Source: Armatimonadota bacterium
Lineage (GTDB): Bacteria > Armatimonadota > UBA5829 > DSUL01
Direction: 5' to 3'
Assembly: GCA_020846715.1 (NCBI GenBank)
Contig: JADLDK010000044.1
Span: forward strand, 1 to 64,000
DNA length: 64,000 nt
Part shown: positions 2,717-36,718 of the stretch, piece after piece
How positions within the stretch are numbered: the stretch's first letter is position 1
Layout: every line of letters begins with the position of its first letter
The notes under the pieces: model-generated
What the model was told of the DNA's origin: nothing
Seen by the model: the letters and a program-made list of their open reading frames with translations, nothing else
The model's database searches: none
Program-made: the position numbers and the translations under genes

Positions 2717-4943
2717 GCTGGCGAGGTTGGGCCGGAGACTGGCTGCCCAGATATCTATTGGGTTGCTTATCGGTTGCGGACCGGGTGGAAGAATCTGCTT
2801 TGCCGCCACTGTGGCATCAGACCAATCGCAACCGTCTTCCTGCCTGGTAATCATAGCCAATCGGCTTAGTATCCACGACAGCGACGAACCTCTGTTTGCT
2901 GCCTTTCTGCAGAAATCCGCCGCGGCATTGGTGGCGCCCGCCTGTCTAGGGGGACGCAGTGAGGCGGCAGTCTTCGCGACCGCATCCGCTGGAGCTTACT
3001 CGCGTGGCAGCGGCGACTATGGGCTACTCCTCAACTGGAATGAGACGTACGAGAACGATACAGCCGCAGACGTCCATCTGCGACGGATCGGCCCTCCTGT
3101 AGCTACCGCAGGCATTGTCCATCTGGGTCTGCCCGCAGTCGTAGCGGCCAACCGTCGAGTCGCAAGTCCTCCAGACGTCTGGATGCTGGGTCAGGCGCTG
3201 CGGGATGCTCATGTTCTCAGAGCTGCGTTTGGCAACAGCGATGCGGGTGAATCTGTATCGCGAGTGGGCGCAGGGCTGCTTTCGGATGCTCACGGTATCA
3301 TTCCCGTGGGAGACATCGGGCCCCGCACCCTCAAAGTGGACTCAAGATCAGCCAGGGGTGTAACGACTGATTTGGATGGTTTTCGCGCAGATGTCCTGGG
3401 CGCACTGAGATCGGGAGCCGTCGTCGAAGTGGAGTACGGAGACCTTGACCGCATTGAGGCGGACCGCGGCGAATACACAAACGCGGCCTATCGCATTGCA
3501 CGAAAACGCGCAGTAGCCAGGCTCTTCTCCTGGGTTCGAAGCATTCGCAGCGACGTTCCGAACGTACCCATTCTCGTGCTTGCGCTTGTCCCGCCACTGT
3601 CAGACAGCGGAACGTGGAATAGCCTGGGACTTCTGATAGCATCCGGCGACGCTTACGGCCACTCTCTGCTTGCAAGTAACACAACCCGGACTCCAGGGAT
3701 TGTCTCAACTGTTGACATCGCTCCCACTATTCTCGATGCTGTCAGCGTCACAAAGCCACGTCAGATGTTGGGATATGCCATAAGGGAGGCTTCGGCCTAT
3801 TCGCAGCCCCTTGACAGGCTGAAGCGCTGGGATTTGATCGTGCGACTGAATGAGGAGTTGCAGTTTCCAGTCTTGCTGGGTCTCGGTCTGCTTGCAGGAG
3901 CCGGCGCACTTGTGGCCACGTGGTATCTGGTCGGCGCCCCAAATTCGCACGCGTGGGGACGAGCCGCAGTTCTGGCGCTTGCAGTCGTCGCGTGGATACC
4001 AGTCATCTTACTGATTCCCCTGGATCGGCCACAGTGGTTTGCGATAGTCGCCCCCGGTGTACTGGTCTCCCTGGGAGCAGCCGCTGCGTCGGGTGAGAGG
4101 GGCCGATTTCTTCCGATGCTCATCCCGGCAGGCTGCATGCTCGCTGGAGTCGCTGCCTCGGCTTTTGGTCTGGCCGATCTGGTGAAGACCTCTGCGTTGA
4201 GCTCTTATCAGCTTCACGGGTTACGTTTCTACGGCATCGGCAATGAGTATATGGGGTGCGTAATCGGCGCTGCCTCTGCCGTTCCGCTATGGATGGCCGG
4301 ACGCCGGCAGATCACCCTGCCGCCTGAAGTTCTCGCTGTCTGGTTTGTCTTCTGGGCGCTGATCATTGCGCTGCCAGCATTTGGCGCGAACCTTGGCGGA
4401 GCTGTCGCAGCGACGGTCTCTTTCTCACTGGTATTCAGGGCGCTTACAGGAAAGCGAGTTACCTCTGCCTCCGCCGCCGTGGCACTAGGGACAGGAGTGG
4501 CAGCCGCAATCGCTCTGGCGATAATAGACGCCCTCGCGTCGGGTTCACATCCAACCCATATGGGGATGGCCGCCCATAGCGTTCTTCACGGGAATGGTCG
4601 AGATGTGCTGGCCGCGATCCAGCGCAAGGCGTTCATGAACATCGGGCTTTGGGGGCGCAGTGAAACTAGAATCGCTGCTCTGATTTTTGCGGCCGTCTTC
4701 GCGACATGGCTACGATATCGAAGTGCGTTAAAGGCCGCATCAAAGTTGCCGCCGGTCGTGACGCAAGGGCTCATCGGACTCTTCTACGGGGCTCTGACAG
4801 CTTTGCTGTTCAACGATTCCGGCGCCGTCAGCATCGCTTTCATTGTCATCTATGTAGTGGGCTGGTACCTGTGGGATCTCGTCACTCTGAAAACGGGCGG
4901 AGCAGTGCAGCTTCGAATGCCACATGCGAGCCCTCGGAGTTGA
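2709..4943 (+). CDS. AlkP-superfamily-like exported domain fused to a multi-spanning membrane domain
   Basis: Probable membrane protein of 744 residues; no characterised function recognised. The TTG start overlaps the alaS stop by 8 bases. A hydrophobic N-terminus (about residues 10-25) ending LLIGC could be a signal anchor or lipobox. Residues about 45-375 look extracytoplasmic and end with STVDIAPTILDAV, the segment typical of alkaline-phosphatase/phosphoglycerate-mutase-fold proteins. From about residue 385 there are roughly ten transmembrane stretches with conserved-looking FYGIGNEYMG, GANLGGAV and LLFNDSGAV motifs. The N-terminal half lacks an obvious complete metal site, so catalysis is uncertain. 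Its place between alaS and ruvX, overlapping both, suggests constitutive co-expression with housekeeping genes. An envelope role is inference. Confidence 0.8.
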   Translation: MTELARLGRRLAAQISIGLLIGCGPGGRICFAATVASDQSQPSSCLVIIANRLSIHDSDEPLFAAFLQKSAAALVAPACLGGRSEAAVFATASAGAYSRGSGDYGLLLNWNETYENDTAADVHLRRIGPPVATAGIVHLGLPAVVAANRRVASPPDVWMLGQALRDAHVLRAAFGNSDAGESVSRVGAGLLSDAHGIIPVGDIGPRTLKVDSRSARGVTTDLDGFRADVLGALRSGAVVEVEYGDLDRIEADRGEYTNAAYRIARKRAVARLFSWVRSIRSDVPNVPILVLALVPPLSDSGTWNSLGLLIASGDAYGHSLLASNTTRTPGIVSTVDIAPTILDAVSVTKPRQMLGYAIREASAYSQPLDRLKRWDLIVRLNEELQFPVLLGLGLLAGAGALVATWYLVGAPNSHAWGRAAVLALAVVAWIPVILLIPLDRPQWFAIVAPGVLVSLGAAAASGERGRFLPMLIPAGCMLAGVAASAFGLADLVKTSALSSYQLHGLRFYGIGNEYMGCVIGAASAVPLWMAGRRQITLPPEVLAVWFVFWALIIALPAFGANLGGAVAATVSFSLVFRALTGKRVTSASAAVALGTGVAAAIALAIIDALASGSHPTHMGMAAHSVLHGNGRDVLAAIQRKAFMNIGLWGRSETRIAALIFAAVFATWLRYRSALKAASKLPPVVTQGLIGLFYGALTALLFNDSGAVSIAFIVIYVVGWYLWDLVTLKTGGAVQLRMPHASPRS

Positions 4944-5364
4944 CGTTGGGTCGGTCCGAATCGGACTGGCGGTGAGCGACGAAACCGGAACACTGTGCAC
5001 GCCACTTGACGTCTGCAAACGCACACCCAGTCTCAAGCGAGATGCCGCTACGATAGCTCAAAGGGCTTGTGATGCCGAGGTCGTGCGCATAGTCGTGGGG
5101 CATCCGCTGCTGGATAGTGGCGATACCAGTCCTGCAGCGAAGGCCGCGGAGGAATTTGCACAAAGACTGGGAAGATATACTGACATCCCTGTAGTTCTAT
5201 GGGACGAACGGCTGTCATCTTTCGAAGCAGAAGAGCGGCTCAGGAACGCTGGAGTCAGCGCCAGAAGAATGCGGGATCTTATCGACAGCCAGGCAGCGGC
5301 CGTAATTCTTGAGTCCTATCTCAACCACTTGAAAGACCATCCCTCGAGAGACGATGTTTCGTAG
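4924..5364 (+). CDS. ruvX: RuvX/YqgF-family RNase H-fold nuclease
   Basis: Putative Holliday-junction resolvase family protein; in E. coli YqgF also acts in 16S rRNA 5' maturation. At 146 residues it has the usual length. The RNase H-fold acidic residues are visible: D7 in GVDVGSVRIGLAVSD, D94-E95 in WDERLSS and D121 in the final IDSQAAAVILESYL helix. The usual VVGLP segment reads VVGHP here. The ATG lies 20 bases inside the preceding membrane-protein gene and the 3' end overlaps mltG by 11 bases, so the three genes are probably translationally coupled. The ruvX-mltG adjacency is common in many bacteria. Confidence 0.93.
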   Translation: MRALGVDVGSVRIGLAVSDETGTLCTPLDVCKRTPSLKRDAATIAQRACDAEVVRIVVGHPLLDSGDTSPAAKAAEEFAQRLGRYTDIPVVLWDERLSSFEAEERLRNAGVSARRMRDLIDSQAAAVILESYLNHLKDHPSRDDVS

Positions 5365-6391
5365 GCAATCATCGCTGGAAAGACTGTGGAACTCCGCGCT
5401 TGGCACTTTCCGTTTGGCCCGCTGGTACCTGATCTTTGTAGTCGCACTTCTTGCGGTGACCGATCTATTATTGCGGGTTGGCGCAGCGCCGCCTACCCAG
5501 CGTCACGATCAGGTTCTTATCACGATTCCACCCGCCGCAAGCCGCGAGAAGGTCGCGTCTATTCTGCGCGGCGCTGAGCTCATCCGAAGCCGGACCGTCT
5601 TTCTGATCATCACGCACGTCGGTTATGAGGGCCGCCCTTTTGTGCCTGGAACATATCGCATGCGGATGGACATGGACCTGTTCCGGGTTATCAATGAACT
5701 CGTAGCAGGACGCGTGGCGGAGTTGAGCGTGACCATCCCAGAAGGCTTCACAGTGACGCAGATAGCCCACAGACTCAAGAGAAAGAACGTTATCGCCGAC
5801 GAAGAGCTATTTCTGAACCTGAGCGAGAGAAAATCGGCTGAGTTTGGGGTAGAGTCCCCAACAGGGAGCCTTGAAGGCTACCTCTTTCCAGATACGTATC
5901 GATTCACTCTCAAGATGGACCCGCGACTGGTGATCGAGCGAATGGTAGGCGATCTCAAGCGCAGAGCTGTCCAGCCTAACTCCTCGCGTCTGTCGGACTC
6001 TGGCGAGCTTCACAAAATTCTTACAGTCGCCAGTCTTATTGAGCGCGAAGCCAAAACGCCTGAAGACCGTCCCCTGATAGCCTCTGTTATCTACAATAGA
6101 CTGGCAAGGAATATGCGGCTGCAGGTGGATGCGACCGTACTGTACGCTCTCAAGGAACACAAGAGCCGGGTTCTCTACAAGGACCTTGACGTTTCCTCAG
6201 CCTACAACACCTACAGACATTCAGGTCTGCCTCCAGGACCGATAGCTAATCCTGGGCTGGCATCAATAGACGCAGCGCTCCACCCGGCGTCAACAGACTA
6301 CCTGTACTACGTCGCGGGTAGTGATGGAAGTCATGTGTTTTCGAGAACCTTTGGTGAGCACATCTCAAACAGAAGGAAGCAGTCCCTTTGA
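5354..6391 (+). CDS. mltG: Endolytic murein transglycosylase MltG (YceG-like)
   Basis: Inner-membrane enzyme that cuts nascent peptidoglycan glycan strands and releases 1,6-anhydroMurNAc ends. The 345 residues hold one N-terminal membrane anchor (WYLIFVVALLAVTDLLL), a LysM-like segment (IPEGFTVTQIAHRL) and the YceG catalytic domain. Family signatures are LEGYLFPDTYRF, the catalytic-glutamate segment ASLIEREA (E230), VIYNRLARNMRLQVDATVLY and the C-terminal SAYNTYRHSGLPPGPIANPG. Start and stop overlap ruvX and the HAD gene respectively. Co-expression with ruvX and the YqeG-type phosphatase is a frequent arrangement. Confidence 0.95.
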   Translation: MFRRQSSLERLWNSALGTFRLARWYLIFVVALLAVTDLLLRVGAAPPTQRHDQVLITIPPAASREKVASILRGAELIRSRTVFLIITHVGYEGRPFVPGTYRMRMDMDLFRVINELVAGRVAELSVTIPEGFTVTQIAHRLKRKNVIADEELFLNLSERKSAEFGVESPTGSLEGYLFPDTYRFTLKMDPRLVIERMVGDLKRRAVQPNSSRLSDSGELHKILTVASLIEREAKTPEDRPLIASVIYNRLARNMRLQVDATVLYALKEHKSRVLYKDLDVSSAYNTYRHSGLPPGPIANPGLASIDAALHPASTDYLYYVAGSDGSHVFSRTFGEHISNRRKQSL

Positions 6392-6927
6392 GTTTACTCA
6401 AGCGGCTTGCCCGGTCTCTGGCGCCGGATGTCTGGATTGAATCGGTATGCGAATTGACTCCGCAATATCTCGGCAGCCTTGGGATTAAGGGATTGATTGT
6501 TGATCTGGACAACACCCTGTGCGAATGGCAGAGTGAAGACATTCCGCAGGAAGTCCGCTTGTGGTTGAAGCAGTTGCAGGAAGCTCGGGTAGGCGTGTGT
6601 ATAGCATCCAATACTCACAACCGGCGCAGACTGGATCGAGTCGCAAAAGATCTGGGCGTGGCGTATGTCCAGGGCGTGCCGAAGCCGCGGCGTTTGTGCT
6701 TTTCCCGAGCATTTGAGCTGCTTGATCTTCCTCCGGAATCCGTGGCGGTGGCCGGAGACCAGATGTTCACAGATGTCCTTGGCGGAAAGCGATCCGGAAT
6801 TCACACCGTCATGGTGAAACCCATTCACCGGCGCGAGTTCATCGGCACTCGTATCAGCCGTATGGTCGAGCGCTATCTTATCAGTCTTTTCGAAAAGCAC
6901 GGGCTATGGCCTCGAAAGATGTCTTGA
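6388..6927 (+). CDS. YqeG-family HAD phosphatase
   Basis: HAD superfamily (class IIIA) hydrolase of 179 residues. The nucleophile motif DLDNTL gives D39 and D41; motif II is visible as CIASNT; the motif III/IV region is KPRR...VAVAGDQMFTDVLGGKRSG. This matches the YqeG family, members of which dephosphorylate phosphatidylglycerol phosphate or nucleotides in other organisms; the substrate here is not known. The TTG start overlaps the mltG stop (TTGA), a typical coupled junction, and gives MSLLKRLARSLAPD, a normal YqeG start. Confidence 0.9.
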   Translation: MSLLKRLARSLAPDVWIESVCELTPQYLGSLGIKGLIVDLDNTLCEWQSEDIPQEVRLWLKQLQEARVGVCIASNTHNRRRLDRVAKDLGVAYVQGVPKPRRLCFSRAFELLDLPPESVAVAGDQMFTDVLGGKRSGIHTVMVKPIHRREFIGTRISRMVERYLISLFEKHGLWPRKMS

Positions 6928-6928
6928 A

Positions 6929-9733
6929 GTGGCTCCAGATGGAAGATTTACTCTTACACTCCTCGCTCTCCAATGCCTCGCAATAGGCGTGTGCGCCCTA
7001 CCCTCACATGGGATTCCAGCCGTTGTCCCGCAATGGACTGACACACCACCAGTAGTAGACGGACGCCTGGACGATGTCGCCTGGCGGAAGGCAGCCAGCG
7101 TGGGCGAGTTTCAGTGGAATGGCAGGAAAGCGCAAGCATCCACAAACGCCTATCTTGCGTACGACGGCGAGGCGTTCTACGCCGGGTTCAAATGCGAGGC
7201 CCCTGCAGAATCGCTGGACGTGACCTATCTGAAAGACAATAGCCCGGTCTGGCAGGACGAATCAGTAGAGCTCTTTATCGCCCCGTGGAATGCTCCTGAC
7301 GCTGGAGGGCTCTACCATTTCGCTGTAAATTCCTCCAGCGCCAGAGCTTTTCTGCGCAACGAGGAAATCCAGGAGAACCTCGACTGGACAGCAGCCACAG
7401 CTCTGACCGCAAAGGGTTGGAGTGCGGAAATTCGTATTCCGTTAAGTATTTTTCGACAAAAGGGCACAAACGAGGCCGCGTGGCGCATACTGTTTGGACG
7501 AAATGCGAAAGCAATAGGTGAGTCCAGTTCGTGGCCGGAGTGTGGCGGACGATTTGCTTATTTCTGGAGTTTTGCTGAGCTTCTGCCTCCCGAGGGCAGA
7601 CCCGGTTTTCTCGGGCGCTATCAGCCGATCACGCCGCGCTCTCGTCCTGATCGGCAGCCTGGCATTCGCACCCTGGAGGCAGCGCCTGCAGAACCGGCCA
7701 TCCAGACCACCCTTATTCCCCAACCGAAACACTCCAAACCCGGCACATCGGCCTTTCGTTTGACGAAAACGACCAGAATCGTTATTCCGAAGGTCGCCTC
7801 AGGTTTGTCTGTGAGTGCCGCGCGAATTCTCGCTGACTGGATTCAAGAGAAAACTGGAATTCGTCCCATCGTCCAACGCAGATCTTCTGGAAGTCTCAAA
7901 GGTTGCATTCTTATCGCGCGCGCAGGCCAATCAGAGGCTCTGGCGCCTCTCCTCAAAGCTTACGGAGAGCGCATCAGCGCCGGGTATCCGGGCAAGGAAG
8001 GTTACGTTATCGCTGTGGACGCTCAGACTGCGGTTGTCGCGGGAAGCGACGATGCAGGCGTTTTATGGGGAGCACAGACGATGGCGCAGATGATTAGGAC
8101 AAATTCGACCGCTGCGCATTCGGCAAGCGCGCCAGAGATTTCAGGGGGAGTCGTGCGAGACCGGCCGAGCTTTCCTTTTCGAAGCGTGCATCTGCTCACA
8201 GCCAAAGACACCTACGCCTTCCAGAGCAAGCTGATTCGCACAGTACTCAGCCCACTTAAGATCAACTATGTCATACTTCAGATGGATAAGTATGACTGGC
8301 ACTCTCATCCAGAGATCACAGACCCGGCCAACCACGTCTCCGCATCCGACGTCAGAAAGCTAATAGCCTACGCTAGAAACTACGGCATCACGTATATCCC
8401 GCTGGTGATGTCACTCGGGCATATGGAGTGGATATTTCGCAACGGACATCATTTGGATATAGCTGAAGATCCCTCCAAACCTTACGCTTACTGTCCTCTG
8501 AATCCAAAGAGTTACGAGTTGATCTTCGATCTCTTTGACGAAGCCTATGAGCTGTTCGGCCGTCCGGGTCTGTTTCACATCGGGCATGATGAGTTCGATA
8601 TGATCGGAAAGTTCCCAACACACGAAGAGTGCGCAAAGCTGGGGAAGGAAGAATTGTACTATCGGGACACACTCAAGCTCGTCGCTCACTTGAAAGCACG
8701 CGGCGCACGCGCAATGATGTGGGGAGATATACTCGAAAAGGAAGGCTTCAAACAGCAGATTGCCCGCCTGCCAAAAGACGTGATGATCGCGGACTGGCAC
8801 TATGGACCAGGAGAAGACTACCCCAGTGTCGATTTCTTCAAGGAGCATGGGTATGACGTCATCGCAGCAACCTGGTACGTTCCGGAAAACATCTATAACT
8901 TCAGCAGGTACGCCGCTGAGCACGGCGCCGACGGGATGATGCAGACGACGTGGAGCGGATGGGAACCGGCGAGTGTGGTTCTTGAAAAATGGCCGGAGCA
9001 GATGTATCAGTACATTCTGGGATCTGAGTGGGCGTGGTCGCCAGGAGCCCGTTCGTTGGACACTCTACCCTACGAGGCGCAAACCGAGTTCAACCGTCGC
9101 TGGGGTATAACTACCGTGTCTATAGACCAGAAGCAGGCGCCTGCTTCTGGAGATCTGTTCAGTGTGAATCTCGGACCGTACGCAAATGTGCCGCTGGCTG
9201 ACAGTACCCGCTCCCCAGGATGGCTTGGCCTCGGGGCCGGTAACGATCTCAGCAGCCTTTCCGCCGGGCCGCAGCGACTCGGAAGCTTCACGTACCGTAT
9301 TCTGGGCTCTTCAGACGGAGCGCCCGCTGCGGTAATGCTACGCGGTCCCCGTATCACAGGGCGGCTACCGCAGCAGGTGACAGGTATAGCCGTGGACAGC
9401 CACGCCAAACAACTGTGGTTCCTACAGACAACGGGATACCTGGAAGGACAAGACAGAACTGTCGGAAGCTACACAATACACTACCATGACGGGGCGCATG
9501 AGGATGTTCCTCTTGTGTATGGGCGCAATATCCGGTCGTGGAGAGATGCGCAGCCAGTTGCGCAAACCGAAACCGCTTGGCGCGGCGTTGACGCATTGGG
9601 AAAAGCTGTGCGCTTGAGAGCCTTTTGCTGGACCAATCCCCACCCTGAGAAAATCATCCGCGCGATTGACTTTATGGCCGTTGAGGACAGTCAGGCATCG
9701 CCCGCAGTCGTGGCGATAACGGGGGTCAAGTAG
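6929..9733 (+). CDS. Secreted CBM9-like + GH20 hexosaminidase-like protein
   Basis: Probable extracytoplasmic exo-beta-N-acetylhexosaminidase of 934 residues. The GTG start, one base after the upstream stop, yields a signal peptide (LLALQCLAIGVCALPSHG). Residues about 35-230 form a CBM9/DOMON-like sugar-binding domain beginning PVVDGRLDDVAW. About 260-390 is the alpha/beta domain that precedes GH20 catalytic barrels, and about 400-720 is the GH20 barrel with HIGHDE at H550-E555, giving the catalytic Asp-Glu pair D554-E555. Most family members have HxGGDE, so the fourth residue (H553) is a variant. The last 200 residues are a beta-rich tail I do not recognise. Likely substrates are GlcNAc/GalNAc-containing glycans; specificity cannot be read from the sequence. 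Confidence 0.85.
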   Translation: MAPDGRFTLTLLALQCLAIGVCALPSHGIPAVVPQWTDTPPVVDGRLDDVAWRKAASVGEFQWNGRKAQASTNAYLAYDGEAFYAGFKCEAPAESLDVTYLKDNSPVWQDESVELFIAPWNAPDAGGLYHFAVNSSSARAFLRNEEIQENLDWTAATALTAKGWSAEIRIPLSIFRQKGTNEAAWRILFGRNAKAIGESSSWPECGGRFAYFWSFAELLPPEGRPGFLGRYQPITPRSRPDRQPGIRTLEAAPAEPAIQTTLIPQPKHSKPGTSAFRLTKTTRIVIPKVASGLSVSAARILADWIQEKTGIRPIVQRRSSGSLKGCILIARAGQSEALAPLLKAYGERISAGYPGKEGYVIAVDAQTAVVAGSDDAGVLWGAQTMAQMIRTNSTAAHSASAPEISGGVVRDRPSFPFRSVHLLTAKDTYAFQSKLIRTVLSPLKINYVILQMDKYDWHSHPEITDPANHVSASDVRKLIAYARNYGITYIPLVMSLGHMEWIFRNGHHLDIAEDPSKPYAYCPLNPKSYELIFDLFDEAYELFGRPGLFHIGHDEFDMIGKFPTHEECAKLGKEELYYRDTLKLVAHLKARGARAMMWGDILEKEGFKQQIARLPKDVMIADWHYGPGEDYPSVDFFKEHGYDVIAATWYVPENIYNFSRYAAEHGADGMMQTTWSGWEPASVVLEKWPEQMYQYILGSEWAWSPGARSLDTLPYEAQTEFNRRWGITTVSIDQKQAPASGDLFSVNLGPYANVPLADSTRSPGWLGLGAGNDLSSLSAGPQRLGSFTYRILGSSDGAPAAVMLRGPRITGRLPQQVTGIAVDSHAKQLWFLQTTGYLEGQDRTVGSYTIHYHDGAHEDVPLVYGRNIRSWRDAQPVAQTETAWRGVDALGKAVRLRAFCWTNPHPEKIIRAIDFMAVEDSQASPAVVAITGVK

Positions 9734-28639: not shown

Positions 28640-29581
28640 GTGAACATTTTGCGCTCATTCTCTATTTTGGACAGGCTCCTGGCTGTCTCAGCGTCTATGG
28701 CCCTGGCGGTTTCACTTGCGACATCCGCAAACCCGCGCTCCGTATCTGCAACACCGTCCGGAAGCACTCAAGTGTCCCCAAATAAGCTAACCGGTGTTCA
28801 GGCCATGGCCATACTTCGAGCAGATCGAGATCCAGTCTGGCAGCGGGCGCGGGCAGAAGTCTATCGAAGTGTGGAGGATTTGCTTGCTCAGCAGAGGCTG
28901 CAGGTTGGCAACGAGTTGCGCTGCCCCACTATCATGCGTGGAGACACTCGCAAACCGCAGATTGCACTGACTTTTGACGATGGGCCTCACCCCGGGTACA
29001 CATATCAGATTTTGCGCATTCTGCGACAGGAGAACGTCAAGGCGACTTTCTTTGTCGTGGGCGAACAGGCAGAGCGTTACCCGGACCTGGTGCGCGATCA
29101 GATTCGAGGTGAGCACTGCGTCGGAAACCACACTTATCACCACGTCAGTCTGACGAAAATTCCCGAACTGTATGTCGCTGACGAAATCAAAGCTTGCGGG
29201 GATGTCCTGCGCCATATCACTGGCAGAGCTCCGCACCTGTTTCGTCCGCCTGGTGGTGACTACAATGCAAGGGTCACTGACGCAGCGCGTGCTCTTGGTT
29301 ACACAATGGTCCTCTGGTCTGACGATCCCGGAGACTACGCCAGTCCCGGCGCATTCAAGATTGCCCAGCGTACCCTGCGGTGTGCGGGAAATGGCGGGAT
29401 ACTCCTTCTTCACGACGGTATCCAGCAGACAGTAGATATCCTGCCATCACTCATTGACACTCTGCGCAAGCGCGGGTACGAGTTTGTCACAGTAGATCAG
29501 ATGCTGGGACGCTCGCGCGGCCGAGTCAACATGCGAACGGACCCGATCCCACCTGCCCCAACAGCGCATCCCTTTCGGTAG
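28640..29581 (+). CDS. Secreted NodB-type polysaccharide deacetylase
   Basis: Metal-dependent carbohydrate esterase 4 of 313 residues, acting outside the cytosol on N-acetylated glycans (peptidoglycan, chitin or exopolysaccharide). GTG start; N-terminal signal sequence (LLAVSASMALAVSLATSA). CE4 motifs are complete: TFDDGPHPG (catalytic and metal Asp), HTYHHVSL (two metal His), RPPGGDYN and WSDDPGDY, and ILLLHD. It lies 25 bases after the DUF5009 gene. A sugar deacetylase beside a possible sugar acetyltransferase is suggestive. Confidence 0.92.
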   Translation: MNILRSFSILDRLLAVSASMALAVSLATSANPRSVSATPSGSTQVSPNKLTGVQAMAILRADRDPVWQRARAEVYRSVEDLLAQQRLQVGNELRCPTIMRGDTRKPQIALTFDDGPHPGYTYQILRILRQENVKATFFVVGEQAERYPDLVRDQIRGEHCVGNHTYHHVSLTKIPELYVADEIKACGDVLRHITGRAPHLFRPPGGDYNARVTDAARALGYTMVLWSDDPGDYASPGAFKIAQRTLRCAGNGGILLLHDGIQQTVDILPSLIDTLRKRGYEFVTVDQMLGRSRGRVNMRTDPIPPAPTAHPFR

Positions 29582-29630: not shown

Positions 29631-29660
29631 TACGAAAGTGTATGGCGTAGTACTTTCGTA
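29631..29660. promoter_or_regulatory. 9-bp inverted repeat upstream of the corrinoid operon
   Basis: TACGAAAGT (29631-29639) and ACTTTCGTA (29652-29660) are perfect inverted copies with a 12-base loop. About 20 bases on, AGTACTT recurs (29673-29679) and a TATAT-rich stretch follows (29686-29690). This looks like an operator next to a promoter for the corrinoid genes. The roughly 140-base leader after it has small hairpins (for example CCGAA/TTCGG) but matches no riboswitch I know, including the cobalamin class. Confidence 0.4.
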
Positions 29661-29832: not shown

Positions 29833-30465
29833 ATGGATCTGCAGCCTCTCTACGACTCAGTTCTGATAGGCGACGCAAAGACAACCAGATCGATTGTTGA
29901 ACAGGCATTGGCTGAAGGCGTCGGCCCGCAACAACTTCTGGATGATTATATGATTCCTGCTATGGACGAAGTGGGCCGGCGATTCGAGGCTAACGAGTAC
30001 TTTGTCCCTGAGCTGTTGATCTCCGCCAGAGCCATGAAGGGAGCGCTGGAGATACTGCGTCCCCTCCTGGCGGACTCGGGATCACAAACTATTGGAAGGG
30101 TGATTGTCGGGACTGTTCGAGGCGACTTGCACGATATCGGCAAGAACCTTGTAGCTGCCATGCTTGAAGGGGGCGGATTTGAAGTCGTGGACCTGGGCGT
30201 GGATGTCCCTCCCGAAAAGTTTATTGAAAGTATTGGCGAGACAAACGCCGACATCATCGCTATGTCTGCGCTGCTGACAACCACTATGCCGGGAATGAAG
30301 ACGACCATTGAGGCACTGGAATCCGCTGGGATTCGGAACAATGTCAAAGTTATCATTGGCGGAGCTCCTGTCACGCAGCGCTACGCAGATGAGATAGGAG
30401 CCGACGGCTTCAGCGATAACGCCAGCGCCGCGGTGCGGTTGTGCCGCGACCTCGTGAACGCTTAG
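29833..30465 (+). CDS. Corrinoid-binding protein of a methyltransferase system
   Basis: Cytosolic cobalamin-carrying protein of 210 residues, homologous in layout to MtaC/MtbC/MtvC. The N-terminal four-helix cap (about 1-85) contains the typical LLDDYMIPAMDEVGRRFEANEYFVPELL. The B12-binding Rossmann domain has the base-off ligand motif GDLHDIG (D98, H100, G103), then VVDLGVDVPPEKF and MSALLTTTM and IIGGAPVT. It shuttles a methyl group between a methyl-donor-specific MT-I and an acceptor MT-II. ATG with AAAGGAAG about 8 bases upstream. It leads the locus containing four URO-D paralogues and a corrinoid activator, though 238 bases separate it from the first of these; a GACCG/CGGTC hairpin lies just after its stop. 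Confidence 0.93.
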   Translation: MDLQPLYDSVLIGDAKTTRSIVEQALAEGVGPQQLLDDYMIPAMDEVGRRFEANEYFVPELLISARAMKGALEILRPLLADSGSQTIGRVIVGTVRGDLHDIGKNLVAAMLEGGGFEVVDLGVDVPPEKFIESIGETNADIIAMSALLTTTMPGMKTTIEALESAGIRNNVKVIIGGAPVTQRYADEIGADGFSDNASAAVRLCRDLVNA

Positions 30466-30703
30466 CGACCGTCGCGGTCGAACAGCCGGGATCGGGAGGA
30501 CTTCAGAGTTCACAGTTGCCGCGAGTGCCCTTTTCATCTCTGAGCAACCGGTGAAGAAACTGTGCCCCCGGTCAATTCTGCATTGACGTCAAAGGCAGCA
30601 ACAGACCGGGCCTTAATGGAAGGCGGTAGAATCCGTAGCTCGCATTTGTGGTTTCTAGAATATCTCAACGACGAGAGCTTTTTTCATTCAACGAGGTTTG
30701 CCC

Positions 30704-31681
30704 ATGACACCCAGACAGCGACTGATTGCCGCCCTGCGATTCGAACCCGGTGAAGGCTGTGTGCCTCACATCGGGATGGACTTTCGCCTTCCGGAAATTG
30801 TCTACGGAGAGCAGCCACTTTGCACTGCAGACTATGAAGCACTCCCCCGGCATCTGAGAAGACATAGTCTTGCGCGGAACGCGGACTTGTGGATACGCAT
30901 CGCTCGCCGGTTTGGAATGTGCGCGATCACCGGCACACAGTGGCTCCCGGTAGAAGCCCAGCTTGAATCGTTTCAATTCATTCGCGAGTTAGCCGATGAG
31001 ACATTCATGGTTGGCGCGTTCGTTGAGGACATGCAGCAGCTTACAACGCCCGGGAGGCTGAGCGCGTTCGCGCAACGCATAGCGGATGACGAGACCGCAT
31101 TAGTGGCAGAGCTGGACGCCTCTTGCACGCAGAGTATAGAGAACATTCGCGAACTCGTAGAAGGCGGCGCCGAGATAATTCTGATGAGTACAATGAATCT
31201 CTCTTCTGACGGGTTGCATCTGAGCCGTCAGGACTTCCAGCGCTTCGTACAACCGTACATCAAAAGGCAGGTAGACGCCGTTCACGAGGCGGGAGCGTAT
31301 GCGCTCAAGCGAGTGTCCGGCAACGCTGCCCCGGTCGCGGATCTTTTCAGTGAGTGCGGGCTCGATGCGCTGCACGTGCTTGACCGCGAAACAGTATCTG
31401 ACGTCAAGGCCACGTGCGCAAGGGCCAACAAACGGCTCTGTCTGGTGACGAATGTTGAGGCGGCTGTATTGAAACGGGCAGACTCAGGAGAAATCCAGGA
31501 CGCCGTCCGTTCGTGCCTGGACACCGGACCGACCGACGGAACAGGCTACGTGTTCTCATCCTACGGATGCCTTGAGCAGCCGGTGCAGCTTTCCAGCTAT
31601 CTGAAGATGCTGGATGTAAAGGCTTCCTGGGAACAGGAGAGATTGAAGAGCGGCAACAATCAGACTGTAACCCTTCAATAA
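30704..31681 (+). CDS. URO-D-fold protein 1 (methyltransferase-like, incomplete zinc site)
   Basis: A 325-residue member of the uroporphyrinogen-decarboxylase superfamily, which includes MtaA/MtbA-type corrinoid:acceptor methyltransferases. The start MTPRQRLIAALRFEPGEGCVP is typical. Where MtaA has zinc ligands H-x-C this protein has K202-R-V-S-G-N (R203 and S205), while the distal ligand Cys is kept (C289 in SSYGCLEQP). It is thus unlikely to bind zinc like MtaA, and could be a methyl-donor-specific enzyme or non-catalytic partner. The stop overlaps the next gene's ATG by one base (TAATG). Confidence 0.82.
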   Translation: MTPRQRLIAALRFEPGEGCVPHIGMDFRLPEIVYGEQPLCTADYEALPRHLRRHSLARNADLWIRIARRFGMCAITGTQWLPVEAQLESFQFIRELADETFMVGAFVEDMQQLTTPGRLSAFAQRIADDETALVAELDASCTQSIENIRELVEGGAEIILMSTMNLSSDGLHLSRQDFQRFVQPYIKRQVDAVHEAGAYALKRVSGNAAPVADLFSECGLDALHVLDRETVSDVKATCARANKRLCLVTNVEAAVLKRADSGEIQDAVRSCLDTGPTDGTGYVFSSYGCLEQPVQLSSYLKMLDVKASWEQERLKSGNNQTVTLQ

Positions 31682-32904
31682 TGACAGTATTTCCGCTGCC
31701 CACGGACTATCTTCTCTCGTTTCCCTTTGAAGAGCACAATGCGGAAATTCAGGAAATGTGGTCGGCGTTTCGCGCAGGCAATCCTCTTCGCACCCCTATT
31801 ATTCTAGGACTCAACGCCCGGTACTTTCTACTGAACCCGAGCCTGAACCAGCGACAGGTGACCTTTCGCCGCTATAGCGAAAACCCTCACGTCATGTTCG
31901 ATCTGCAACTCGAATTCCAGCGCTGGAGCAAGTTCAATCTGGTTCAGGACACGGAACTTGGCCTTCCGGAGAAGTGGAAAGTCTGGGTTGATCTGCAAAA
32001 CTATTATGATGCGACGTGGCTGGGATGTGAGCTTGAGTATCCAGATGACGAAGTCCCGGACGTTCGTCCGGCATTTTCAGATTGCCCCGAAAAGCTGATG
32101 GAGAGAGGACTTCCGGATCCGTTCGGAGGAACGATGGCGGACGGCCTTCGGTACTGGGAACGCTTCAAAGAACGCGCAGAGAAGGAAGTTTTTTTTGGTC
32201 GGCCAATCGAGGTGGCCGAACCGTCCTTTGGCACTGGCATGGACGGAGTGTTTACGGTCGCTTGTTGCTTGATTGGACCGGAAACAGTCTGCGAAATGCT
32301 TCTGTGTGACACTGAGCGCATTCATCAAATTTTCGGCTTCATTGCGGAAGCGTTAGTGGCCAAAGTCAAAGCGTGGAGGCAAAAGTGTGATCTCCCCTAC
32401 CCTGTGGACGGTTTCTCCACAGGCAATGACTGCCTCGCATTGATCTCTGCAAGAACGTACCGCGAGCACATACTACCCTACGATCGTCTCATCTATGACA
32501 CGTTTGCGACAGAGAAAAATCGGACCCTTCATCTGTGCGGCGACGCAGGGCATCTCTTTCAGACGCTGAACACAGAGCTTGGTATCACAACCTTCGACAC
32601 GGGCTTTCCGGTGGACTTTGCGGCTCTCAGGCGAACTCTCGGACCGGAGGTAACCATTCAGGGCGGCCCTCACATAGAGATGCTGCGATCATCGTCAATG
32701 GAAGAGGTGGCAACCGAAACCCGCCGGATACTTGAGAGTGGGGTGTTGGAGGGCGGTAGATTCGTACTGAGAGAGGGCAACAATCTGGCGCCGCTGACAC
32801 CGCCGGAAAATGTGGCGGCTATGTATGGCGCTGGTCGCAGGTTTGGATTCTGCCGCGACGGATATCACCGGTGGAATCCTGTAGATCGAAAGAGGTTGAA
32901 CTGA
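31681..32904 (+). CDS. URO-D-fold protein 2
   Basis: A 407-residue divergent URO-D superfamily protein, translationally coupled to the genes on both sides by one-base stop/start overlaps. The central barrel keeps H284-L-C286-G-D (two of three MtaA-type zinc ligands), but the third cysteine is replaced (REGNNLAPLTPPENV has Asn at the equivalent site). The first 130 residues are more divergent (RTPIILGLNARYFLLNPSLN, VWVDLQNYYDATWLG) and may form a distinct substrate pocket. A role as methyl-donor-specific MT-I is possible; not demonstrated. Confidence 0.78.
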   Translation: MTVFPLPTDYLLSFPFEEHNAEIQEMWSAFRAGNPLRTPIILGLNARYFLLNPSLNQRQVTFRRYSENPHVMFDLQLEFQRWSKFNLVQDTELGLPEKWKVWVDLQNYYDATWLGCELEYPDDEVPDVRPAFSDCPEKLMERGLPDPFGGTMADGLRYWERFKERAEKEVFFGRPIEVAEPSFGTGMDGVFTVACCLIGPETVCEMLLCDTERIHQIFGFIAEALVAKVKAWRQKCDLPYPVDGFSTGNDCLALISARTYREHILPYDRLIYDTFATEKNRTLHLCGDAGHLFQTLNTELGITTFDTGFPVDFAALRRTLGPEVTIQGGPHIEMLRSSSMEEVATETRRILESGVLEGGRFVLREGNNLAPLTPPENVAAMYGAGRRFGFCRDGYHRWNPVDRKRLN

Positions 32905-34073
32905 TGAATGCTCGCGAGCGCTTCAACGCGACAATGCACTACCTTCCGCGAGACAGAAGTCCGATCATGGATTTTGGGTTTTGGAGTGAAACGCTTGTGA
33001 CCTGGGAGCGCTACGGCTTGCCGCCCGGGACGGATACGGATGCGTTCTTCGGCATGGACCCTCAGTGGATTGTGGCGCCAATCAACAGCCATTTGTACCC
33101 TGCTTTTGAGCATGTTGTTCTTGAGGATCGGGGAGAGACGGAAATTGTTCGAGATGGTGACGGGGTTACCAAAGAACAGGGAAAGTTTCTTGGTTCTATT
33201 CCAAGGCACATGGACCACGTTCTCAAGGATCGAGAAAGTTGGGAGAAAGAGTTCAGGTGGAGACTGGATGGGAGGCAACCTGAAAGGTATCCGCACGACT
33301 GGGCGTCTATACAACAACGCTTTCAAGATCCACAGCGAGATTATCCGATAGGAATTAACGCAGGCTCTCTATATGGCTGGTTGCGCAACTGGATGGGACT
33401 GGAAGCCATCTCTATGCTGGTCTACGATGACCCTGCCCTCTTTGAAGAGATGGTTGAGGTGGTTACGGACTGCATCATTGACAGCATGTCCCCAGCATTG
33501 GAGAGCGGCATTCAGTTTGACTATGCGCTGATGTGGGAGGACATGTGCTATCGCGCGGGCCCGCTTCTCTCCCCTGCGGTATTCAAACGGGTACTCGTGC
33601 CCAACTTCAAACGTATCACCGACACCCTGGCACGCTTCGGCGTTGATGTTGTCATCACGGACTGCGACGGTGAGATCACCCAGCTACTGCCGCTCTGGCT
33701 CGAGAGTGGCGTAAACTGCATGTTTCCTCTGGAAGTAGGCGCATGGGGCGCAGACCCTGTCGAGTTTAGAAAAAAGTATGGGCGAGACTTGCTGATGATG
33801 GGTGGCGTTGGAAAGCGTGTGCTGGCGGGACCAAAAGAGCAGATTCGGGCAGAGGTCGAGAGACTCGCACCCCTGGTTGAAGACGGCGGCTATATTCCCA
33901 CACCTGATCACCGTGTCCCGCCAGATGTGCCACTGGACAACTACATCTACTATCTTGATACAGCCAAAGAGATATGGGGCAAAGGTCTGCCGAACCTGCT
34001 ACCGACGGCGCCGCAGGGGCTCGAGCTTCCCAAAGCTGACCCCGACAGGTATTCCTGGCATCTAGGCGACTGA
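32904..34073 (+). CDS. URO-D-fold protein 3
   Basis: A 389-residue URO-D superfamily protein. The ATG at 32904 overlaps the preceding TGA (TGATG form), and AGAGG lies upstream. It starts MNARERFNATMHYLPRDRSP. At the metal-site positions it has D253-C254-D-G and, distally, P334-D335-H336-R-V-P in place of a Cys, plus C272. So the ligand set would be Cys/His/Asp, different from the other three copies. This pattern (GG-x-x-P-x-x-D-H-x-V-P) is common in uncharacterised URO-D-like proteins of anaerobic and environmental bacteria. Substrate unknown. Confidence 0.8.
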   Translation: MNARERFNATMHYLPRDRSPIMDFGFWSETLVTWERYGLPPGTDTDAFFGMDPQWIVAPINSHLYPAFEHVVLEDRGETEIVRDGDGVTKEQGKFLGSIPRHMDHVLKDRESWEKEFRWRLDGRQPERYPHDWASIQQRFQDPQRDYPIGINAGSLYGWLRNWMGLEAISMLVYDDPALFEEMVEVVTDCIIDSMSPALESGIQFDYALMWEDMCYRAGPLLSPAVFKRVLVPNFKRITDTLARFGVDVVITDCDGEITQLLPLWLESGVNCMFPLEVGAWGADPVEFRKKYGRDLLMMGGVGKRVLAGPKEQIRAEVERLAPLVEDGGYIPTPDHRVPPDVPLDNYIYYLDTAKEIWGKGLPNLLPTAPQGLELPKADPDRYSWHLGD

Positions 34074-34148
34074 AGCGATAGCAAGGCACAGCAATTCAGT
34101 TAGCAGGATGATGGCACAATACTGTTTGATTTTGAAAGTGGGAGAAGT

Positions 34149-35183
34149 ATGAACGGAAGAGAGCGCTTTTTTGCGCATCTGCGGGGAGAGGCGGTCGATC
34201 ATCTGCCCTGTCTGCCGATTACGATGCAGTTTGCGGCAGACCTGATCGGCGTTCCCTACAAGGAATACGCTACAGACTACAGGGCTCTGGTGCGCGGGCA
34301 GATCGCAGTGGCTGAAACATTTGGGCTTGACTACGTGAATACCATGTCCGACCCGGCTTGTGAAGCTGCAGACTGCGGAGCGAAGATTACCTTTCACCCA
34401 GATCAGCCCCCTGCGGTGAATGAGTCCGAGTCACTGCTGATGGACAAAGAGACACTCGTACACCTCAAGCAGCCAGACCCCAGCTCGACAGAGCGCATGA
34501 GCAACCGCTTGAAGGCCCTGTCTTTCTATAAGGAGCAGGTTGGCGGGCAGCTTATGATTGAAGGCTGGATTGAAGGTCCGTTAGCGGAAGCCGCTGATCT
34601 GCGTGGAATCAACAGAGTCATGCTCGACTTCCTTGACGACCCGTCATTTGTGCGTGACCTCTTCGAATTTGTCCTTGAGATGGAGCTCCGCTTTGCGAAG
34701 GCTCAGGTAGATTCCGGAGCAGAGCAGATCGGAATTGGGGATGCCGCGGCCTCTCTGGTCGGCCCCAAAATCTATAAAGAGTTCGTGTGGCCTTATCAGA
34801 AGCGAATGGTGGATGCGCTCCACGAGATGGGAGTGAGCGTTCGTCTTCACATCTGTGGCAACACCAGCAAGATACTTGAAGGAATGGGCAAGCTGGGGTG
34901 TGACATCGTAGAGCTGGATTCACTGGTGTCAATGGCCGATGCGCGCGAGACGATGGGCGCTGAGCAGATACTGCTTGGGAACATTGATCCCGTGCGCGTC
35001 GTGCGTAATACAAACCCAGATACGGTGCGCGAGGCGCTGGAAGAGAGCCACCGCGAAGCGGGCCATCGCTATATGGTGGGCGCGGGCTGCGAAGTGCCCA
35101 GGGATACACCAAAGGAGAATATGCAGGCTATCGTTGACTATGCCCGGCAACACTCGCCGGACCGCTGGGAGGAGTCCAGGTGA
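34149..35183 (+). CDS. URO-D-fold protein 4, MtaA/MtbA-like methylcobamide methyltransferase
   Basis: A 344-residue protein with the complete MtaA/MtbA zinc signature: H234-I-C236-G-N and C314 (GAGCEVPRDTPKENM), 78 residues apart as in coenzyme M methyltransferases. It is therefore the best candidate in the locus for the MT-II step, moving the methyl group from methyl-cob(III)amide on the corrinoid protein to a thiol or other zinc-activated nucleophile. A bacterium would not normally use coenzyme M, so the acceptor is open. GGGAG lies about 8 bases before the ATG. The 3' end overlaps the activator gene by 4 bases (GTGA). Confidence 0.87.
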   Translation: MNGRERFFAHLRGEAVDHLPCLPITMQFAADLIGVPYKEYATDYRALVRGQIAVAETFGLDYVNTMSDPACEAADCGAKITFHPDQPPAVNESESLLMDKETLVHLKQPDPSSTERMSNRLKALSFYKEQVGGQLMIEGWIEGPLAEAADLRGINRVMLDFLDDPSFVRDLFEFVLEMELRFAKAQVDSGAEQIGIGDAAASLVGPKIYKEFVWPYQKRMVDALHEMGVSVRLHICGNTSKILEGMGKLGCDIVELDSLVSMADARETMGAEQILLGNIDPVRVVRNTNPDTVREALEESHREAGHRYMVGAGCEVPRDTPKENMQAIVDYARQHSPDRWEESR

Positions 35184-36718
35184 GCGACAAGAGGACCCAC
35201 CGTATCCGGCTTCAGCCGATCGGAGTAGAGATTGAGGCGGAGCACGGAGCGCCGCTAAGGGACTTTTTGTTTGAGCAGGGAGTTGAGTTCCCGTGCGGCG
35301 GACAGGCGCGCTGCCGTGGTTGCAGAGTGCTGGTTCACGAAGGAAACGTGACAGCGACACCTGCCCAATGCGCCAAGTTGTCTGAGGCGGAGATTGAGGC
35401 GGGATGGCGTCTGAGTTGCCAGTGCAACGTCGAAGACGACCTGGTTATAGAGCTGCGCCAGTGGGATGCCGCAATACTGGCAAATGATACAGCATTCACG
35501 TTTACACCGCAGGATGGTCTTGGAGTCGCTGTGGATATCGGCACGACCACAATGGTGGCGCAGCTTCTCGACATGAGCACGGGACACGTTCTTGGTGTGA
35601 GGACGGCGCTGAACTCGCAGGCTCGCTTTGGGGCAGATATTATGAGCCGGGTTCACTACTCGGTAGCGGGCGGCGGACAGGAGCAGCTTACAACGTCCGT
35701 CCGGGTGCAAATAAGCGGGCTTATTCAGGGGCTGCTGACTAAAGCGGAAGTGGAAGACACAGATCTTCGCCGCGTTGTCCTGGTCGGCAACAGCGTGATG
35801 CACCACCTCTTCTGTGGCATTGATCTCGAGCCACTCTCTCACGTGCCCTTCGAGCCTGTGGACGACGGACTTCAGACATTCAGCGGACGCGACCTGGGCT
35901 GGAAAATCGCTCAAGACACCAAGGTGGAGTTTTTGCCTTGTCTGGGTGGATTTGTTGGCAGCGATATACTGGCGGGCATTCTGGCTACGGGCGTAGCTGA
36001 CAGCTCAAAGCTCGTGGGCCTCGTGGATATAGGCACAAATGGCGAAATCGTGTTTGGAACGCGGGACCGCCTGATCTGCGCATCCGCGGCCGCGGGGCCG
36101 GCGTTCGAAGGCGCTCTCATCTCAGTAGGCATGCGGGCGGCGTCCGGAGCTATCTGGCGCGTATCGAGCAATGGGCACGGCATGCAATGCGAAGTGCTTG
36201 GCGACGAGGAAGCTCGCGGGATATGTGGCAGCGGTCTGGTGGACGCAGTGGCTGTCGGTCTGGATGTTGGGCGGGTGCTCCCTTCTGGTCGGCTCGCGGA
36301 CGGAAGCAGCACCCTTGGTCTCACTGAACACGTAGCGCTAACGCAGACGGACATTCGCCAGCTTCAGCTTGCAAAGGGCGCAATTGCTGCTGGAATCAGG
36401 ATTGTCCTGAAGGATCTCGGGGCGGATCTGTCAGACGTCGAGCAGATCTTTCTTGCTGGGGCTTTTGGCAACTATGTGAGTCACCAAAGCGCGCGGCGCA
36501 TTGGTCTGGTCAACTTCCCTGATGAGAAGATTGAAGCCTCTGGTAACACAGCTCTTCTCGGCGCCAAACTGGCGCTGTTCAATCAGGGTGACAACAGCTA
36601 TTCAGAAATCCTGAACAAGATTGAACATATCACGCTCAGCAGCGATATGGAGTTTCAGGAGATCTATGTGGATGAGATGAGCTTTCCGTCAGACGCAGTT
36701 GAACGTGCGACGACGTAG
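35180..36718 (+). CDS. RACo/RamA-like corrinoid activation protein ([2Fe-2S] + ASKHA ATPase)
   Basis: A 512-residue reductive activator that returns cob(II)alamin to cob(I)alamin at the cost of ATP. The N-terminal ferredoxin domain has C39, C45, C48 and C80 (CGGQARCRGC and LSCQC), a plant-type [2Fe-2S] arrangement. After a linker, the DUF4445/ASKHA domain begins VAVDIGTTTMVAQLLD and contains LVGNSVMHHLFCGID, LVDIGTNGEIVFG, ICGSGLVDAVA and IFLAGAFGNYVS. GTG start within the upstream stop. Its presence shows that the neighbouring corrinoid protein is used in the cob(I)alamin redox cycle. Confidence 0.92.
   Translation: MSDKRTHRIRLQPIGVEIEAEHGAPLRDFLFEQGVEFPCGGQARCRGCRVLVHEGNVTATPAQCAKLSEAEIEAGWRLSCQCNVEDDLVIELRQWDAAILANDTAFTFTPQDGLGVAVDIGTTTMVAQLLDMSTGHVLGVRTALNSQARFGADIMSRVHYSVAGGGQEQLTTSVRVQISGLIQGLLTKAEVEDTDLRRVVLVGNSVMHHLFCGIDLEPLSHVPFEPVDDGLQTFSGRDLGWKIAQDTKVEFLPCLGGFVGSDILAGILATGVADSSKLVGLVDIGTNGEIVFGTRDRLICASAAAGPAFEGALISVGMRAASGAIWRVSSNGHGMQCEVLGDEEARGICGSGLVDAVAVGLDVGRVLPSGRLADGSSTLGLTEHVALTQTDIRQLQLAKGAIAAGIRIVLKDLGADLSDVEQIFLAGAFGNYVSHQSARRIGLVNFPDEKIEASGNTALLGAKLALFNQGDNSYSEILNKIEHITLSSDMEFQEIYVDEMSFPSDAVERATT

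Follow-up and report, generated by a model that had tools for sequence, protein, structure and literature searches.

The window, i.e. the whole 64,000-nucleotide stretch of DNA that was analysed, lies on contig C44 of an Armatimonadota draft genome (G000; 3.2 Mb, 69 contigs, 94% complete). At positions 29833-36718, it contains six genes on the plus strand that encode a corrinoid protein (A), four UroD-fold proteins (B to E), and an activase (F). The features of the locus are as follows:

29631-29660, strand not applicable: perfect 9-bp inverted repeat, TACGAAAGT-N12-ACTTTCGTA, about 170 bp upstream of A
29833-30465, plus strand: A, stand-alone methyl-carrier corrinoid protein (MtgC/MtbC-like) with B12-binding caps (PF02607/PF02310) and the motif DLHDIG
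30704 (or TTG 30698)-31681, plus strand: B, UroD-fold protein, above the URO-D PF01208 cut-off
31681-32904, plus strand: C, UroD-fold methyltransferase of the MtaA-side clade, above the URO-D PF01208 cut-off
32904-34073, plus strand: D, UroD-fold protein and proposed main donor-side MT-I, above the PF01208 cut-off
34149-35183, plus strand: E, MtaA-like UroD-fold methyltransferase and proposed thiol-side enzyme, above the PF01208 cut-off
35180-36718, plus strand: F, RACo/RamA-type ATP-dependent corrinoid reductive activase with Fer2, Raco_middle, and RACo_C_ter domains, a [2Fe-2S] plus ASKHA make-up

All six genes are in frame, and overlaps of 1-4 bases are present at three of the five gene junctions: one base at B/C (TAATG), one base at C/D (TGATG), and four bases at E/F (GTGA). 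The A-B and D-E gaps are 232-238 bp and 75 bp, respectively. This confirms the first-pass annotation of the DNA insofar as it described a corrinoid protein, four URO-D genes joined by overlaps or short gaps, and an activase overlapping the last of these. A polysaccharide deacetylase gene upstream (28640-29581) and two large helicase/nuclease-like genes downstream from 36916 (assigned from their translations) look unrelated to the operon, which contains no substrate transporter or catabolic gene. There are 11 URO-D genes in the genome, and the chance of finding at least four of them among the five genes after the corrinoid protein is approximately 6e-10. The inverted repeat is the sole match to its pattern within the window (0 in 100 shuffles) and is a possible operator for some regulator. 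No sigma-70-like promoter was found on the plus strand, and terminators were not in excess. Control by a riboswitch was dropped as an explanation, since neither cobalamin nor SAM riboswitches were found in the window or in 12 other loci searched.

Apart from MetH (about 1219 aa), A is the sole stand-alone corrinoid protein (B12-binding_2) encoded by the genome. As the first-pass annotation had stated for the locus, MT-I enzymes of the MttB and MtaB types are lacking: MttB (PF06253) was found nowhere in the assembly, and neither was MtaB (PF12176), the gene for which could be missing because the draft is 94% complete. Consequently, no donor-side candidates are recognisable other than the UroD-fold proteins. 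MtaB occurs in 44 of 291 genomes of the phylum; two genomes of the same family have it, and it lies apart from the carrier in the one that was inspected. The homocysteine module (PF02574) is absent from contig C44, and could likewise be missing from the draft assembly. A homocysteine methyltransferase on contig C50 was considered as a displaced cluster gene and rejected; it is 41% identical to the cluster type, compared to 57-68% among close clusters, and does not clearly appear to be an ortholog.

The search for a folate-side partner, which had been suggested previously, identified a CH3-THF:corrinoid methyltransferase on contig C47 (23799-24620), which is above the curated cut-off of NF005719 ('methyltetrahydrofolate:corrinoid/iron-sulfur protein methyltransferase') and adjoins MetF and a MetV-like DUF5981 protein. 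Pterin_bind has no match on contig C44. There is no CdhD above the cut-off in the genome, and no other corrinoid partner of the acetyl-CoA pathway was found. Therefore, a Wood-Ljungdahl role for the C47 methyltransferase was ruled out, and A (or MetH) is its sole visible partner. The first-pass annotation had named a dedicated MT-I and MT-II elsewhere in the genome as evidence against its own reading; half of this, the MT-II, is present, whereas a dedicated MttB- or MtaB-type MT-I was not found.

E and C group on the side of MtaA in a tree that includes 4AY7, with B and D placed in two other clades. Pairwise identity among B to E is about 20-30% where they can be aligned, and a recent tandem duplication is ruled out by the tree together with these low identities. 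When the zinc-ligand positions of MtaA were transferred through profile alignments, a complete His-Cys-Cys site was found in E only (H234-C236-C314). C retains H284 and C286, and has N367 at the position of the third Cys, with E365 two residues before it. D has T252/D253/C254/D255 and H336, forming an Asp/Asp/His site of the carboxylate/His type, as well as a WED(M) motif; residues D253, G256, E212, D213, D335, and H336 are invariant in 36 sequences. Six of seven B homologues have HTDGN and one has HSDGD, where B of the window has RVSGN. With this motif lost, B is perhaps non-catalytic or altered, and it probably adds little catalysis in this genome. The four paralogues are thus not equivalent, given the full thiol site of E and the lost motif of B, and among them operons elsewhere favour the D family as MT-I. 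Within the UroD superfamily, His-Cys-Cys sites are associated with sulfur/selenium chemistry, and their replacement by carboxylates with O-demethylases (PMC10418091).

A structural comparison with MtaA had also been suggested. For C and D, structure prediction gave confident models (pLDDT of 93.1 and 92.0, respectively), whose best PDB match is MtaA 4AY7, followed by uroporphyrinogen decarboxylases and MetE. The D profile has no PDB match: no similarity of D to a characterised O-demethylase is measurable at the sequence level, and neither CdmB nor MtaA was detected. Among the solved-structure matches, CdmB is matched weakly by the B and C profiles and not by that of D, and other members of the MtvB/OdmB/MtoB/CdmB clade are absent from the matches of the paralogue profiles. 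Separately, none of the 11 URO-D proteins is near the canonical hemE cut-off of 303 (the best, E, scores about 80 bits), so haem would have to be produced via another route, or else hemE is missing from the draft assembly.

The first-pass annotation had taken one MT-I and one MT-II to be the usual pattern. Corrinoid clusters with several UroD-fold proteins nevertheless have precedents in the mlp clusters (PMC10418091) and, additionally, in the two MtoB genes of Methermicoccus (PMC8630106). The mlp clusters (type 1 MGC; Kountz & Balskus, PMC10418091) resemble the window locus in that several MtaA-like/UroD-fold proteins, one corrinoid protein, and one RACE activase are encoded on one strand with no nearby THF methyltransferase. 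They are defined by a corrinoid protein, Ram, and two or more Mlps (sharing over 25% identity with a characterised SCMT), all in one direction, with gaps of at most 2 kb and no THF methylase within 20 kb (PMC10418091). The layout at the locus corresponds to this definition (a single orientation, gaps no longer than about 240 bp, and no Pterin_bind match on contig C44). Relative to the aligned PDB segment of MtaA 4AY7, the one SCMT compared, E is 27% identical over 315 positions, C is 30% identical over 290 positions in one global alignment, B is 23% identical, and D is not alignable.

It could thus be proposed that the locus is an mlp-like system, in which E (and C) would serve sulfur/selenium salvage or methionine, either by demethylating methylated thiols or selenols or by methylating thiols. 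The recipe is common to both (several UroD-fold proteins, a corrinoid protein, and an activase, clustered without a THF methyltransferase; PMC10418091), E has the appropriate His-Cys-Cys site and 27% identity to MtaA, and relatives of the cluster include a homocysteine S-methyltransferase. However, this explanation is considered unlikely. The Mlps of type 1 clusters have a nearly invariant His-Cys-Cys zinc site, with exceptions among Mlps1 (PMC10418091), whereas here the full triad is missing from C, D, and B, and B and D are from other UroD clades. Moreover, mlp clusters stand in S/Se contexts (PMC10418091), but the operon contains no gene related to sulfur or selenium; MetH is encoded in the genome; and D is the protein that accompanies the corrinoid protein most consistently. 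The Mlp2/Mlp3 subclusters of type 1 (PMC10418091) are also not shown for the window locus.

Other known systems resemble the locus in part; together with the mlp clusters, the UroD-type demethylases and the roseobacter hub described below are the nearest in the literature. The three-component O-demethylases MtvABC, OdmABCD, and MtoABCD (PMC8630106), and their relatives, among them the chloromethane system CdmBCA (PMC13222342), consist of a UroD-fold MT-I, a corrinoid protein, an ATP-dependent activase, and a THF/H4MPT methyltransferase. The corrinoid protein and activase are present in the window, and a THF-type MT-II is present in the genome, but it is unlinked (contig C47), and D is without the sequence match to CdmB that B and C weakly have. 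With the methanol system MtaABC, the locus shares an E that resembles MtaA, and relatives' clusters have MtaB, although this genome does not. The MtgABC and methylamine systems differ in relying on an MT-I of the MttB superfamily (PF06253), which is absent here.

Comparison with related clusters places the locus in a wider context. Chthonomonadales relatives retain the gene order and have extra MtaB, homocysteine methyltransferase, and DUF1638 genes; therefore, the window contains one variant of a conserved modular cluster. In L089 and L108, the order is carrier-MtaB-X-C-homocysteine methyltransferase-D-DUF1638-D'-E-RACo, and variants of it are present in L066, L140, L088, L090, L069, and L070. 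The cluster MtaB gave an E-value of 5.6e-157, and Pfam served to identify the homocysteine methyltransferase and DUF1638. Family X (L066:10602-11681 and homologues; approximately 360 aa) has no Pfam match at E 0.001, yet the scan of genomes placed it close to C, D, and MtaB at nine loci. A minimal carrier-MtaB-D-RACo set is found in L092-L094, and related sets are also present in Chloroflexota, Planctomycetota, Verrucomicrobiota, and others. A, D, and E of the window are about 59-76% identical to proteins of Chthonomonadales-type clusters, with values of 68-76% for A and 59-68% for E, the homologues of which adjoin RACo in close clusters. Within the window's own class, A is 51-60% identical to its homologues, and within its own family C is 36-38% and D is 46% identical. 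The cluster was likely gained by transfer.

Because MtaB is in the same operon in the closest clusters, a methanol-type donor appears to have been part of the ancestral or sister system. This qualifies the initial idea of a demethylase for an undescribed methoxylated or methylated compound. It is also conceivable that the locus is a degenerate leftover of a methanol (MtaB-type) cluster from Chthonomonadales and is now decaying, as the closest clusters (L089, L066, and L140) have MtaB, X, homocysteine methyltransferase, and DUF1638 in like order, all of which are missing here, and B has lost its motif. Nevertheless, such decay is very doubtful: the six frames are intact with overlapping junctions, conserved residues are retained in C, D, E, and F, and L090 is an independent MtaB-less version of the cluster.

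The relatives' clusters include most modules of the MtgBCDE/split methionine synthase hub of roseobacters (PMC12478193; PMC5764234), in which one carrier serves donor, THF, and homocysteine modules in aerobes, together with a RamA-like activase and DUF1638. Fitness data tie DUF1638 and the RamA-like protein to B12 reactivation (PMC12478193; PMC5764234). The donor enzymes differ, being UroD-fold proteins and MtaB rather than MtgB, and the window locus has neither a homocysteine module (PF02574) nor DUF1638. No account of this cluster family was found in open-access literature on Armatimonadota corrinoid or MtaB systems, and the family is apparently both widespread and undescribed.

Two further loci bear on the role of D. 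In L190 (Armatimonadota; 1102-7122), a single run encodes the carrier, MetF, MT2, MetV, a D homologue (45%), and formate-THF ligase. This run may be a complete pathway from methyl to formate, and no donor-side candidate other than the D-type protein is encoded in it. L189 similarly contains a carrier, a D homologue (45%), a THF methyltransferase, MetF, formate-THF ligase, and DUF1638, with more UroD-like genes beyond. Since an acceptor enzyme is already present in these runs, D is best read as the MT-I, and the operons thus point to the D family as the donor-side enzyme, in line with the early suggestion that one or more UroD paralogues would act as MT-I. E, which has a thiol-type site and adjoins RACo in close clusters, is more likely to work on the acceptor side or as an S-methyl enzyme.

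Co-occurrence was surveyed in 291 Armatimonadota genomes; as these are interrelated, the counts are not phylogenetically independent, and p-values indicate strength only. A stand-alone corrinoid protein is present in 92 of 96 genomes with the THF methyltransferase, compared to 55 of 195 without it. C is present in 89 genomes of the phylum, 87 of which also have a stand-alone corrinoid protein. Close relatives of D (about 50% identity or more) were found in 27 genomes, all but one with such a protein (26/27). Within family f20, D is present in 12/12 genomes with the carrier and 0/73 without, and C in 8/12 and 0/73, respectively, which argues against a mere lineage effect. The near-perfect dependence of C on the carrier, even where C stands alone, marks it as a putative corrinoid methyltransferase, on either the donor or the acceptor side. 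Of the 15 genomes with the closest D orthologues, only 2 encode the THF methyltransferase. The enzyme is common in the window's class, in which RACo is often the sole companion of the corrinoid protein, with no URO-D neighbours; as in L197-L205, genomes of this class often have a RACo-corrinoid pair, or the corrinoid protein alone, away from URO-D genes.

Taken together, the cluster family probably strips methyl groups from an oxygen-linked donor and passes them to folate or a thiol. For the window locus, demethylation of an O-linked donor by D (with C), and transfer from the carrier to THF and perhaps to a thiol via E, is given about even chances. The system would be built around the single carrier A, on which F would reduce Co(II) to Co(I). 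D, as MT-I, would activate the oxygen-linked methyl donor and methylate A, and C would perhaps help D or widen the substrate range. Methyl-A would then be demethylated to tetrahydrofolate through the AcsE/MtgA-type methyltransferase of contig C47, a partnership that draws on the co-occurrence counts, and the methyl group would enter the folate C1 pool, open to oxidation. Through E, methyl groups could also leave or enter by a second route of the thiol type, and B would be a diverged paralogue. Several observations weigh against this model: the lack of measurable sequence similarity between D and a characterised O-demethylase, the unlinked position of the THF methyltransferase and its scarcity among genomes with the closest D orthologues, its frequency in the window's class where URO-D genes often do not adjoin the corrinoid protein, and an operon devoid of transporter or catabolic genes.

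Flow in the biosynthetic direction, with CH3-THF methylating A via the C47 enzyme and B to E making methylated thiols or other products, is regarded as rather improbable. The genome has MetF, MetV, and an HdrABC/MvhD-like reductase cluster, which could make CH3-THF, and thiol methylation is the natural activity of MtaA/E-type enzymes. However, relatives' clusters include MtaB, a donor-side enzyme, and L190 and L189 are linked to formate-THF ligase, as in methyl oxidation, although this enzyme is reversible.

Most of the large UroD superfamily is uncharacterised, and some Armatimonadota genomes encode dozens of candidate members. Operon structure and presence/absence link C and D, two of its unassigned families, with a corrinoid carrier, so that their assignment as methyltransferases is testable. 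If it is right, corrinoid C1 metabolism of unknown donors would be added to phyla for which no report was found in open-access literature, and the six-gene set plus three folate-side genes would offer a defined system for biochemistry. More tentatively, and at somewhat below even chances, D and C may found new UroD-fold corrinoid MT-I families with non-Cys sites that act on an undescribed O-methyl donor, and the clusters of Armatimonadota, Chloroflexota, Planctomycetota, and Verrucomicrobiota may form an undescribed 'carrier hub' that links several donors (MtaB and several UroD types) to folate/thiol acceptors, including in lineages that are generally considered aerobic.

Two additional loci were observed in which UroD-fold homologues have other neighbours. 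In L004 (2161-9609), HdrB/HdrA/MvhD-like genes and AsrAB-like flavin/iron-sulfur subunits face a B-family UroD protein, which keeps the HTDGN motif that was lost in B of the window. In L130 (1789-6467; Anaerolineae MAG), a full-length MetH is directly followed by a D homologue and then by a second homocysteine methyltransferase.
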